This document shows positions 8,218 through 15,980 of a stretch of 24,586 nucleotides of DNA, piece by piece. Both the position numbers and the translations under genes were made by a program. The notes beneath the pieces were generated by a model, which made no database searches, was not told the origin of the DNA, and saw nothing but the letters and a program-made list of their open reading frames with translations. Source of the stretch: Chloroflexia bacterium (GTDB lineage Bacteria > Chloroflexota > Chloroflexia > Thermomicrobiales > JALYUS01); contig JAICIL010000021.1 in NCBI GenBank assembly GCA_025924435.1, forward strand, positions 1 to 24,586, read 5' to 3'. The first letter of the stretch is position 1; every line of letters starts with the position of its first letter.

Positions 8218-9786
8218 CTATGCCCGCGCTTTCTTCACTGCCGCGTGCCAGCCCGCGTAGAGATGCTCGCGCTCGTCGTCGCGCATGCGGGGTTCGTAGG
8301 TGCGGTCCACGGCCCAGTTCGCGGCAATTTCGTCCTGGTTTCGCCAGTAGCCGACGGCCAGCCCCGCGAGGTAGGCCGCGCCGAGGGCCGTCGTCTCCGT
8401 CACCTGTGGGCGCTGCACCGGCACGCCGAGGATGTCCGCCTGGAACTGCATGAGGAAATCGTTGCGTACCATCCCGCCATCCACGCGCAGTTGCTTGACG
8501 GCGATACCGCTCTCGCGTTGCATGAGATCGAGCACGTCCCGCGTCTGGTAGGCGACCGCTTCGAGCGTCGCCCGGACGATCTCCGCCCGCCCGCTGCCCC
8601 GCGTCAGGCCAACGATCGCGCCGCGCGCGTACGGATCCCAGTAGGGCGCGCCCAATCCCCCGAAGGCGGGGACGAGGTAGACGCCGCCCGTATCCGGCAC
8701 CGACGCCGCCAGCGCCTCCGTCTCCGCCGCGCGCTCGATGATCCGCAGGCCATCCCGCAGCCACTGCACCGCCGCGCCCGTCACGAAGATCGCGCCTTCC
8801 AACGCGTACGTCAGGGCTGAGGACTCAGGACTGAGGATTGAGTGCCCCGCTCCCTCCTCAGTCCTCGGCAGTCCCCACGCGACGGTTGTGAGCAGGCCGC
8901 TTCGCGACTCTTTCGCGTCCGGGCCGGTGTTCATGAGCAGGAAGCAGCCGGTGCCGTAGGTATTCTTCGCCATGCCGGGGATGAAGCACGCCTGGCCGAA
9001 GGTCGCGGCCTGCTGGTCGCCCGCGACGCCGGTGATGGGGATGGGCTGGCCGAAAAGGGCGGCATCCGTTTCACCGAACAGTCCGCTGGAGGGCAGCACC
9101 TCCGGCAGCATCGCATGCGGGACATTCAGCGCGGCGAGCAGTTCATCGTCCCACGCGCCGCTGTGGATGTTGAAGAGCATCGTGCGCGAGGCATTCGTGA
9201 CATCGGTGACGTGCCGCGCGCCGCCCGTCAGCCGCCAGATCAGGAAGGTGTCAACCGTGCCGAAGGCGAGGTCGCCGCGCTCCGCCTTCTCCCGCGCGCC
9301 GGGGACAGTGTCGAGCAGCCAGCGGAGTTTCGTGCCGGAGAAGTAGGCGTCAATGACGAGGCCGGTCTTCGCGCGGATGCGCGCTTCCCATCCCGCCGCC
9401 TTCAATTCGTCGCAGTAGCCCGCCGTCCGCCGGTCCTGCCAGACGATGGCGTTCGCGATGGGCCGGCCCGTCGCGCGGTCCCAGACGAGGGTCGTCTCGC
9501 GCTGGTTCGTGATGCCGATCGCCGCGATTGACGCCGCCGTGACACCCTGCGCCGCGAGCACATCCTGGGCGACCGCGCGCTGCGTCTCCCAGATCGCCTC
9601 CGGGTCGTGCTCGACCCAGCCGGGCTGCGGGAAAATCTGCGGAAACTCCCGCTGCCGCGCCGCGACGATCTGCCCGTCGTGGTCGAAGAGGATCGCGCGC
9701 GAACTCGTCGTCCCCTGATCGAGCGCCAGAACATAGGACCGAGGACTGGGTATCCTTACAGGAACTGAGGAGTGAGATTCCCGCAT
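8218..9786 (-). CDS. glpK: Glycerol kinase
   Basis: This FGGY-family kinase phosphorylates glycerol to glycerol 3-phosphate, the substrate of GlpD. Recognisable segments are [16 protein letters not shown] at the N-terminus, [46 protein letters not shown] and [20 protein letters not shown] place the start at 9786 (522 aa) because AAAGG lies 5 bases upstream and a -10 box at 9831-9838 would start transcripts near 9825. Alternative ATGs are at 9810 and 9825. Two stretches look added by repeat DNA: about ten residues before the conserved start ([12 protein letters not shown]), and roughly 14 extra residues between TTVAWG and TYALEG, where the family usually has about six. The loop should tolerate this, but activity is not certain. 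Confidence 0.93.
8814..8864. repeat. GGACTGA heptamer repeat with inverted half, inside glpK
   Basis: GGGCTGA, GGACTCA, GGACTGA and GGATTGA stand in tandem (8814-8841), followed 16 bases later by TCAGTCC in inverted orientation. The stem TCCTCAGTCCT/AGGACTGAGGA can form. Translated in glpK it gives [11 protein letters not shown] in a surface loop. Confidence 0.8.
9736..9775. repeat. Degenerate GGACTGA repeat at the glpK 5' end
   Basis: GGACCGA, GGACTGG, a 10-base spacer, then GGAACTGA and GGAGTGA. It is translated as [12 protein letters not shown] between the start codon and the conserved [10 protein letters not shown], matching the peptide made by the other heptamer arrays. Confidence 0.65.
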
Positions 9787-9830
9787 CAACGCCTTTCCCC
9801 TTCGTTCCATGCACTCTCGTCTCATGGCAC

Positions 9831-9838
9831 ATTGTATA
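9831..9838 (-). promoter_or_regulatory. -10 box upstream of glpK
   Basis: Minus-strand TATACAAT lies 45 bases before the preferred glpK start. A transcript would begin near 9825, so the ATG there would be leaderless, while 9786 would have a leader with AAGGGGAAAGG. No convincing -35 box is visible; the upstream DNA is the palindromic element. Confidence 0.45.
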
Positions 9839-9845
9839 CTGCCTG

Positions 9846-9977
9846 CCTAACCCCCCGGCCCCCTTCCCTCCGAGGGAAGGGGGAGCGAGCCGCTAACAAG
9901 CCGGGGTGTTACGGGAACGCCTCGCTCATGCGATGAGTCACCCCTTCCCGTTCCGGGAGGGGGCCGGGGGGTAGGTT
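9846..9977. repeat. Inverted pair of REP-like elements (copies 3 and 4)
   Basis: Copy 3 (9846-9890) points towards glpK and has a perfect 12-base stem (9859-9870 with 9872-9883). Copy 4 (9934-9977) points towards sua5: TGAGTCACCCC, a 10-base stem, then GGCCGGGGGGTAGGTT. The outer ends form terminal inverted repeats of about 20 bases (CCTAACCCCCCGGCCCCCT against its complement). The 189-base gap between divergent glpK and sua5 is mostly this structure. Confidence 0.8.
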
Positions 9978-14720: not shown

Positions 14721-14750
14721 GGGACCGGGGCGGTGTCAGGCCCCGGCCCC
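14721..14750 (+). promoter_or_regulatory. GC-rich hairpin in the dehydratase leader
   Basis: CCGGGGC-loop-GCCCCGG with an 8-base loop, extended by GGG/CCC across one mismatch (10 paired bases). It lies between the -10 box and the start codon and could control transcription or translation. No T-run follows. Confidence 0.45.
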
Positions 14751-14789
14751 CGCGACACGGTTCTATACGACGGGGGTTAGGCAAACGGC

Positions 14790-15941
14790 ATGAAAATCAC
14801 CGATATCCGGACGGCGGAGGTTAAGGGGCACGGCTACTCGACGTACGTGCGCATCTACACCGACGAGGGTGTGATCGGCAACGGCGAGTGCATCCACGGC
14901 GGCGAGGGCTGCCCGGCGATGGTCCACGCGCTCAAGCAGTATGTGATCGGCGAGGACCCGGTTAACGTGGACATGCTGTTCGAGAAGATGCGCCGCTCGC
15001 GCCTCTTCGACGGTGCGATGTCCGGCGCGACCGTCACGGCGATGACGGGCATCGAGATAGCGCTCTGGGATCTCGCCGGGAAGATCCTCGGCGTGCCCGT
15101 CTACCAACTGCTCGGCGGCAAGTTCCGCGACACCGTCCGGCTCTACTGCGACAGCCACGCCGGGAAGGACTTCTCCCCCGCCTCGTACGCGCAGCGGGCG
15201 AAGGAGGTCGTCGCGCTCGGCTTCGACGCGATCAAGTTCGATGTAGACGAGCGCACGCACGGCTTCCGCAACGACCAATGGAACTGGAACGCCTCCGGCC
15301 CGGAGGTGGAATGGATGACCGACCGCGTCGCGGCGGTGCGCGAGGCGGTTGGGCCGAAGATTGATCTCGCCATTGACATGCACGGTCGGTACGACACGGC
15401 GAGCGGCATCCGCGTCGCCAGGGCGATGGAGCCGTTCAAATTGCTCTGGCTGGAGGAGCCGGTGCCGCCGGAGAATGTCGCGGCGATGCGCGAGGTGAAA
15501 TTGCATTCCCCCGTGCCCCTCTGCGCGGGCGAGAACCTCTACCTCCGCTGGGGCTTCCGCGACCTGATCGAACAGCAGGCGGTGGACACGATCATGCCGG
15601 ATATCCCGAAGTGCGGCGGCCTCTCGGAGTGCCGCAAGATCGCCAACATGGCGGAGGTTTACTACATCCAGTTCGCGCCGCACAATGTCTGCGGCCCCTT
15701 GGGCACGATGGCCTCCGCGCACGTCTGCGCCACCATCCCGAACTTCCTCGTCATGGAGTGGCACTGGGTGGACTACGAGGGGTGGGACGACTTCGCCACC
15801 GGCGATCGGCCCGTCATTCAGGACGGCCGCGTCGCCCTGACCGACAAGCCGGGCATCGGCCTCGAGGTGAACGACGACGCGCTCATCCCCTATCTCCGCC
15901 CCGGCACGACGCTCTTCGGCGCGACGCCGACCACACCATAG
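14790..15941 (+). CDS. Mandelate racemase/enolase-superfamily sugar-acid dehydratase
   Basis: This 383-aa protein has the capping domain at residues 1-120 (IRTAEVKGHGYSTYVRIYTDEGVIGNGE) and a TIM-barrel after it. Likely metal ligands are D196 (in IDMHG), E222 (in WLEEP) and E248 (in AGEN). H198 in the DxH motif and H298 in APHN would act as acid/base, the arrangement of galactonate-dehydratase-like members, which remove water from aldonic acids. There is no KxK motif (IKFD instead), so a racemase role is unlikely. The exact substrate cannot be read from sequence. The ribosome site is weak (GGGGGTTAGG 9 bases upstream). It is a single-gene unit with its own terminator at 15993-16021; no sugar transporter is adjacent. 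Confidence 0.9.
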   Translation: MKITDIRTAEVKGHGYSTYVRIYTDEGVIGNGECIHGGEGCPAMVHALKQYVIGEDPVNVDMLFEKMRRSRLFDGAMSGATVTAMTGIEIALWDLAGKILGVPVYQLLGGKFRDTVRLYCDSHAGKDFSPASYAQRAKEVVALGFDAIKFDVDERTHGFRNDQWNWNASGPEVEWMTDRVAAVREAVGPKIDLAIDMHGRYDTASGIRVARAMEPFKLLWLEEPVPPENVAAMREVKLHSPVPLCAGENLYLRWGFRDLIEQQAVDTIMPDIPKCGGLSECRKIANMAEVYYIQFAPHNVCGPLGTMASAHVCATIPNFLVMEWHWVDYEGWDDFATGDRPVIQDGRVALTDKPGIGLEVNDDALIPYLRPGTTLFGATPTTP

Positions 15942-15952
15942 GGAAGAACGAA

Positions 15953-15980
15953 GGACTGAGGACTGAGGACTGAGGACTGA
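15953..15980 (+). repeat. Four exact GGACTGA heptamers
   Basis: Four identical tandem units start 12 bases after the dehydratase stop and end 12 bases before its terminator. It is the same 28-base array as 10996-11023 in the other orientation. Confidence 0.92.

Follow-up and report, generated by a model that had tools for sequence, protein, structure and literature searches.

The short tandem heptamer arrays, GGACTGA on one strand and TCAGTCC on the other, in a 24,586-nucleotide (nt) stretch of DNA from a Chloroflexia bacterium (GenBank assembly GCA_025924435.1, contig JAICIL010000021.1, positions 1 to 24,586; this whole stretch is referred to as the window) are probably arms, paired or single, of small palindromic elements that resemble REPINs (repetitive extragenic palindromic (REP) doublets forming hairpins), with tandem heptamers as their arms. 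Heptamer arrays are known from unrelated bacteria and their origin is not agreed. Three results narrow that origin, i.e. many of the arrays form oppositely oriented, exact-ended pairs of fixed order, their orientation outside genes is independent of stop codons and of G runs, and, in a hairpin-encoding insert within glycerol kinase (GlpK), the heptamer word changes in both arms together. The last is the finding that we consider most worth following. Together these results recast a microsatellite puzzle as a testable question on a process of copying or conversion.

Joint change of heptamer in both arms of the GlpK insert

The window GlpK carries an in-frame palindromic insert in a loop where E. 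coli GlpK (1bo5) lacks 15 residues; inserts occur at the same loop of this conserved protein in orthologs and vary widely among them. The ortholog set comprised the first 33 of the 120 GlpK matches listed (P0121-P0153, the window protein included), less two for which the loop pattern failed, leaving 31. Both arms could be assigned to a heptamer class in 23 of the 31, one arm in two, and neither in six. All 23 have the same class in both arms (GGACTGA in 17, GTGCTGA in four and GTACTGA in two), and 0 of 100000 label shuffles were as good; the arm-class patterns were written after the data had been viewed, and the 23 include three with one and the same sequence. In a blind comparison, all 16384 heptamers were scored against both halves of the 26 distinct inserts of at least 15 residues; the score was 636.5, versus 557.8 +/- 12.4 for shuffled halves, and none of 2000 shuffles reached it. 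With the second half taken in direct orientation instead, as a control, there was no excess (483.0 versus 483.4; 268 of 500 shuffles reached the observed score).

On a tree of the 31 proteins, made with the insert and the N-terminus removed, the GTGCTGA class needs four changes, three of them forced by well-supported branches, and the GTACTGA class needs two, both forced. All four groups together need eight changes, fewer than in any of 200 shuffles (mean 12.0), several inner branches being weak. The arm classes are partly inherited; allele exchange or chimeric assembly could inflate the count of switches. A further array, at the GlpK N terminus, stays in the GGACTGA class in four of the five non-GGACTGA proteins with a classable N-terminal array (P0122 by a very short match). 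Thus the matching of the arms is not explained by genome-wide use of one unit, and it looks like a property of the element, not of the genome.

The predicted RNA fold of the stretch coding for the window insert has an energy of -39.4 kcal/mol (z -2.8, reached by one of 200 shuffles), and that of the N-terminal array is unremarkable (z +0.5). Among the 120 matches listed, the closest named GlpK relative is from a Thermomicrobia bacterium (P0147, 84%), and GlpK is the ground on which the sequence comparisons lean to Chloroflexota for the window. DNA of the GlpK clade was also sought in 158 genomes of the class, eight of which matched at E <= 1e-210, with a best identity of 70% and none in the clade.

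Order, ends and spacers of paired arrays

Across all loci analysed for pairing, neighbouring arrays within 250 nt, with differing spacers, comprised 58 pairs in the order GGACTGA then TCAGTCC and none in the reverse order, together with 11 same-orientation neighbours. Two further heptamer families keep to this order, with 14:0 and 9:0, in G008, a Blastocatellia draft genome from which 60 stretches (989 kb) were sampled; 17 of the first 20 stretches are from contigs known to hold arrays, the others were taken regardless of arrays, and genes were called with an in-house caller (coding 0.88). The spacers between paired GGACTGA arrays have a median of 65 nt (range 21-210). The outer base is A in 56 of 57 cases on each side, and the inner base is G in 56/58 and 55/58; of 39 arrays from Chloroflexota, 36 likewise have (A,G) ends, and the ends of other heptamer families are less sharp. 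Because the array ends are mostly fixed at A...G, array lengths favour 7n+2, the commonest being 30 nt, or four units (37 arrays in loci L001-L116).

Another match within the G008 sample was found for 24 of 57 spacers (11/26 for GGACTGA, 11/14 for CAGGGTT and 2/17 for GAATTGA), with matches of at least 50 nt for 8, 8 and 0 spacers, respectively. CAGGGTT interiors recur elsewhere with up to 97% identity over 102 nt, and this family looks mobile as a whole element.

Three individual loci of G008 may be recorded here. At L123 (1034-1177) the 12 nt outside both arms are perfect reverse complements, such that the hairpin extends past the arrays. At L119 (~1313-1407/2630-2724) and L149 (~5482-5587/6949-7047) single genes lie between inverted copies of the GGACTGA element that are 77-85% alike, giving these gene-flanking copies the look of composite units.

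Placement and orientation outside genes

The G008 arrays are mainly extragenic (66 intergenic, 13 intragenic and three, at edges, unclassed). At gene 3' ends, 40 arrays have GGACTGA in the sense orientation, from -14 to +26 nt relative to the stop codon (median 4), versus nine with TCAGTCC (median 98 nt), and at 5' ends sense TCAGTCC predominates over GGACTGA (14 versus 3). Divergent gaps, which make up 76 of the 429 gaps of at least 40 bp, hold only one of the 66 intergenic arrays. Relative to the nearest gene, GGACTGA points outward in 54 cases and inward in 12; a separate count, made alongside other heptamer families, gave 50:13, with 23:8 for GAATTGA and 27:2 for CAGGGTT. GAACTGA arrays in a further genome, G176, are also outward (5:1). 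For Chloroflexota, 58 loci, nearly all chosen for holding arrays, were analysed; the G-rich strand is outward in 21 versus 9 cases, the count at 3' ends is 14 versus 3, and divergent gaps hold 6 of 30 intergenic arrays. An empty site for the G008 arrays was sought with a single flanking gene, which had no match in nine other genomes of the family.

The CAGGGTT family is informative with respect to the cause of this tendency. Here the stops fall on the AACCCTG strand, which points inward, such that the outward tendency is kept with the stop strand reversed, and avoidance of stop codons as a full explanation is rejected outside genes. Stop avoidance hence covers the intragenic bias only.

Reading frames and strand bias inside genes

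A TCAGTCC array translates as SVLSPQS in all three frames and a GGACTGA array as GLRTED-stop in all three; translation thus confirmed the arithmetic of the first-pass annotation of the window, which had been made from the sequence alone. Its proposal that intragenic copies are biased to TCAGTCC on the coding strand was upheld in other genomes, with 12 TCAGTCC and 1 GGACTGA on the gene strand in the G008 sample and 7 of 7 TCAGTCC in the Chloroflexota loci. With a 20-nt criterion, the G008 intragenic counts are 11/11 for TCAGTCC, 7/7 for TCAATTC, and 3 CAGGGTT versus 1 AACCCTG. The lone G008 array that lies within a gene with GGACTGA in sense is, likewise, one arm, of two units, of a pair that points inward in a predicted gene. 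The preference for the stop-free strand is forced by arithmetic once there are three or more perfect units.

The further contention that the repeat is safe in genes in one orientation only fails, because the GlpK inserts carry a GGACTGA-oriented 5' arm in which the stop, where the arm reaches it, is substituted. The window glpK gene strand also holds GGACTGA-type units (LPRTEEGAG), and orthologs have longer ones (RRTEDSGLRTE); what would be RTED-stop-GLRTE in a pure array appears as RTEDSGLRTE. The arm reaches the in-frame stop position in 19 of the 23 classed inserts, the residue there being Ser in 11, Arg in four, Leu in two, and Val and Gln in one each. The G-rich orientation thus appears to be tolerated in a gene if the in-frame stop, of which there is one per 21 nt, is substituted, or if the arm is too short. 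GlpK may be regarded as a natural record of a hairpin with both arms coding, the G-rich arm of which has been forced to lose its in-frame stops. What stands of the first-pass interpretation, therefore, is that stops decide which strand survives inside genes; it does not extend to orientation outside them, where the arrays, including those of CAGGGTT, follow the separate G-richer-outward tendency, and stop avoidance need not be the reason for the array that follows a stop codon in the window.

The PurE reading frame is continuous from the ATG at 10939, across the array, to the core, and no ATG, GTG or TTG occurs in frame after the array and ahead of the core; the N-terminal array peptide of GlpK is followed immediately by YVLALDQG, likewise with no start codon in between. 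Because no in-frame start codon separates array and conserved core, the arrays at both protein starts should be translated. The PurE N terminus is a landing place for repeats. The 120 relatives listed of 7999 have differing repeats at the same N-terminal place, including SVLSPQS (4), SALSTQH (6) and HPSS (3) types and palindrome-derived PPPDxGG (14) and GAHS (7) types; the type names were coined in this analysis, and the search uses shared words, so repeat-bearing N termini are over-sampled in these counts. None of these repeat peptides precedes the PurE core in the 12 Chloroflexota PurE loci examined. The closest named relatives among the 120 listed are from Pyrinomonadaceae (85%) and Blastocatellia (83%), each over ~85% of the query, and the best PurE identity is 74% in 251 sampled Chloroflexota genomes and 75% in 119 sampled Acidobacteriota.

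Distribution and period

A perfect threefold TCAGTCC repeat is present in at least 116 stretches of GTDB species genomes, the 80 listed spanning many phyla. The distribution is patchy at close range, with 2035 overlapping GGACTGA double-unit matches in G008 and none in nine other sampled genomes of its family. Period 7 stands out among tandem repeats: G176, some stretches of which had been selected because they hold arrays, has 33 arrays versus 0-1 at other periods; 40 stretches of G008 have 117, versus 21 at period 9 and 0-2 at others; and 40 mixed Chloroflexota stretches have 8 versus 0-4. In G008 (L149-L188), 11 of the 21 period-9 arrays belong to one tandem family, AAGACTCCC, that occurs alongside the heptamers.

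Heptamers with a TGAG core match in 40 of 251 Chloroflexota genomes. A universal TGA/TGAG core was considered and rejected; TGA occurs in 15 of 37 unit types (41%, versus 21% expected), a reversed-pattern control also matches widely, and the core is thus enriched without being a rule.

Discussion

The proposal that best accommodates these results is of a complete element with the form (GGACTGA)n - spacer - (TCAGTCC)n, which as single-stranded DNA or RNA would fold into a long hairpin. Most copies would occupy gaps next to a start or stop codon, few would lie between divergent genes, and, because the element has one fixed polarity, its G-richer arm would usually point away from the adjacent gene. 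Within genes there would be an additional filter, the C-rich arm being free of stops in any frame and the G-rich arm surviving only if it is short or if its TGA codons, one per 21 nt in the frame used, are substituted. The GlpK copy would have stayed in frame, at a single loop, throughout a lineage, probably within Chloroflexota, with its heptamer word replaced in both arms together several times. The positions, the pair order, the exact ends, the matching of the arms in protein sequence and the in-frame inserts are observations; from them we infer that copying or conversion acts on the hairpin as a unit, and that the hairpin is not essential in function. A wider proposal, which we regard as doubtful, is that some process writes matched opposite pairs in steps of seven bases, the AG ends being fixed, and is able to rewrite simultaneously the two arms of a hairpin that is already present, even in the gene for a conserved enzyme, without a RAYT (REP-associated tyrosine transposase) or a detectable reverse transcriptase, the G-richer-outward signature being common to several unrelated heptamer words in distant phyla.

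Plain replication slippage, in which heptamer microsatellites expand by slipped-strand mispairing and selection against stops sets their orientation, has been offered as a hypothesis for heptamers (PMC4692102, the portion available), and is consistent with the variable copy number and the stop-free strand of intragenic arrays. It does not, however, predict the strong excess of period 7 over other periods, the mostly fixed A...G ends, the 58:0 pair order, an outward CAGGGTT in 27 of 29 cases despite its reversed stop strand, or the joint switching of unit in the two GlpK arms, and we consider it unlikely. We give similarly little weight to functional RNA hairpins kept for mRNA stability, termination or translational control. 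Such roles have been proposed for TAACTGA arrays (PMC4679880) and in Geobacter (PMC2700814), in the sections of those papers available, and the arrays do adjoin stop and start codons, avoid divergent gaps and, in GlpK, fold well; but GGACTGA double units occur in only one of ten G008-family genomes, the GlpK copy is coding sequence that varies widely, and there are no Rfam matches in the window.

Telomerase-like templated addition, by which a reverse transcriptase would add G-rich heptamers to 3' DNA ends at breaks that are then rejoined, should leave G-rich strands inward from both sides and lengths of 7n+2. The G-rich strand does extend a 3' end on both sides, the arrays run from AG to AG with 7n+2 lengths, and bacterial reverse transcriptases that write tandem repeats exist (DRT10, PMC12632851, as far as the available part of that report goes). 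We nevertheless find this explanation very unlikely, given that rejoined ends predict no spacer, whereas spacers of 21-210 nt are usual, and that G001, G005 and G009, all drafts, have arrays without a match to the PF00078 reverse transcriptase family. Least probable, to the point of being remote, is that G-quadruplexes determine where the arrays lie and why four units are preferred, an idea put forward for GGGNATC repeats. Four-unit arrays are the commonest length and the orientation rule is as described, in the part available, in PMC4692102; the GGACTGA unit contains GG, but GAATTGA has none and shows the same 23:8 tendency, on which ground quadruplexes were rejected as a common cause.

REP sequences have a tetranucleotide tag, GTAG/CGTC. 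The REPIN-like reading has itself to be weighed against a number of observations that count against it. An association with RAYT genes, the usual partners of REPINs, was sought and not seen: G001 and G003, which have GGACTGA arrays, and G256, which has TGAG-core arrays, gave no PF01797 hit, and G269 has nine PF01797 hits and no GGACTGA double units. Copy numbers of the two arms are uncorrelated (r = -0.21), and the matching of the arms in GlpK is read from protein sequences. Whole-element transposition is unsupported for the GGACTGA family because 15 of the 26 spacers are without a second copy and several of the 11 matches of the others are nested or are heptamer stretches. Extra hairpin pairing in the flanks, which appeared when all flanks were used (12.3 versus 10.2; 50-shuffle maximum 11.2), was discarded, there being no excess in the 13 heptamer-free pairs. 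With respect to polarity, unpaired G008 arrays are outward in 16 and inward in 11 of 27 cases, a fourth, small G008 family gives 3 outward versus 2, and the 5'-end bias is absent in Chloroflexota (7 versus 6). The TAACTGA arrays of Beggiatoaceae, to go by the part of the account available (PMC4679880), are for the most part forward and sit immediately ahead of start codons, which means that this polarity does not hold everywhere. In the window itself, no partner arm with three or fewer mismatches was found for either perfect array.

Among candidate enzymes, Y1 transposases are present in 17 of 25 genomes and RVT_1 in 13 of 25, and neither tracks the arrays, drafts being liable to miss genes; a perfect heptamer array was found in one of 20 Y1_Tnp loci (~1.5 kb per side, some shorter).

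The comparisons with known systems that follow draw on the available parts of the published accounts. MacGregor (2015, PMC4679880) described TAACTGA arrays in Beggiatoaceae, Cyanobacteria and Bacteroidetes, and had already stated the stop/no-stop logic and the reverse-orientation intragenic copies. Those arrays resemble the present ones in being short tandem 7-mers of which one strand has stops in all frames and the other encodes an open repeating peptide, in having reverse-orientation copies inside open reading frames (ORFs), and in their patchy spread across phyla; they differ in unit (TAACTGA versus GGACTGA) and in that a single indirect repeat is reported in the main genome, arm matching not being described in the portion available. 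Rehm (2015, PMC4692102) reported the same outward rule for GGGNATC/GGGGAYT heptamers in Xanthomonas and Nostoc, where arrays are sense after stop codons, antisense upstream of ORFs, scarce between divergent ORFs and preferentially of four units. The discussion there is via G-quadruplexes, whereas the tendency is also seen for GGACTGA and GAATTGA, in which G runs are weak or absent, and inverted pairs are central to the GGACTGA arrays, unlike in that account.

REPINs (Bertels and Rainey 2011, PMC3116915) are likewise hairpin-capable inverted repeats around a spacer, to which the 58:0 order, the GlpK fold and the joint arm units correspond here, and are likewise mainly extragenic (here 66 intergenic versus 13 inside genes in G008). 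They differ in that the arms here are tandem heptamer units rather than REP sequence, and in that the RAYT link was not found here. The Rickettsia palindromic elements (reviewed in PMC10969869) share in-frame palindromic insertion into unrelated metabolic genes, but are ~150 bp with a conserved peptide, whereas here the peptide changes with the heptamer word. Geobacter metallireducens (PMC2700814) has four tandem heptamers between and within genes, and another class of five heptamers with the consensus MTYCTGA; the units differ from GGACTGA, and the account available describes neither orientation nor arm matching. No literature on GGACTGA arrays or on joint arm switching was found among titles and abstract openings, subscription papers being largely outside the scope of that search. 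Related heptamers and orientation rules are thus already published (PMC4679880, PMC4692102, as available); what appears newer here is the pair order, the exact ends and the joint switching of arms.

Features of the window

GGACTGA occurs 10 times in the window, versus 2.0 expected (0 of 100 shuffles reach 10). Four GGACTGA/TCAGTCC arrays had been claimed in the first-pass annotation; two are perfect, that at 8814-8864, with two perfect units, one per strand, is instead an imperfect inverted pair, and that at 9736-9775 contains no perfect unit. The last is read as a decayed copy, because many GlpK orthologs have an unmistakable array at the corresponding position. The features are collected in Table 1.

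Table 1. Heptamer arrays of the window and the genes that hold or adjoin them
Feature	Position	Strand	Remarks
Perfect A(GGACTGA)4G array, 30 nt	10995-11024 (units 10996-11023)	-	Inside purE, the coding (+) strand of which reads TCAGTCC here; adjoins the conserved core on its N-terminal side
Perfect A(GGACTGA)4G array, 30 nt	15952-15981 (units 15953-15980)	+	GGACTGA sense; leading A 10 nt past the stop of ORF 14790-15941
Imperfect inverted heptamer pair	Arms 8816-8835 and 8850-8869		Inside glpK; arms 80% complementary, 14 nt spacing
21-residue-coding stretch in GlpK loop	8812..8874	-	Arms oriented as GGACTGA (5') and TCAGTCC (3')
Putative decayed heptamer array, glpK 5' end	9736-9775	-	Gene strand has the TCAGTCC orientation; matches two units with 2 mismatches
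Second heptamer family, CTCATTG-type, degenerate	24273-24336	+	Tandem Repeats Finder (TRF) rows with period 7, 14, 21
glpK (glycerol kinase)	8218..9825	-	NCBIfam NF000756 805 bits, TIGR01311 741 bits; PDB glycerol kinases; hosts the internal hairpin and the N-terminal array
purE with N-terminal extension	10939..11496	+	TIGR01162 207 bits, match from residue 30
Sugar-acid dehydratase-like (enolase superfamily) gene	14790..15941	+	NF010624 283 bits, under the cut-off of 311; upstream of the 3' array

C/G-rich palindromes lie beside the heptamer arrays at 9848-9972 (CCCCCTTCCCTC..GAGGGAAGGGGG) and at 10964-10984 (CCCCTCCCG..CGGGAGGGG). The latter is translated into the PurE N terminus, and similar PPPDxGG peptides recur among PurE relatives. 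Directly downstream of the array at 15952-15981 there is a strong, terminator-like hairpin followed by TCTTTT (15994-16020). The CTCATTG-type array, which the first-pass annotation overlooked together with the presence of both orientations in the GlpK copy, lies between what we take to be a sigma-70-like ORF (23322-24230) and, presumably, a ferredoxin-like frame downstream.

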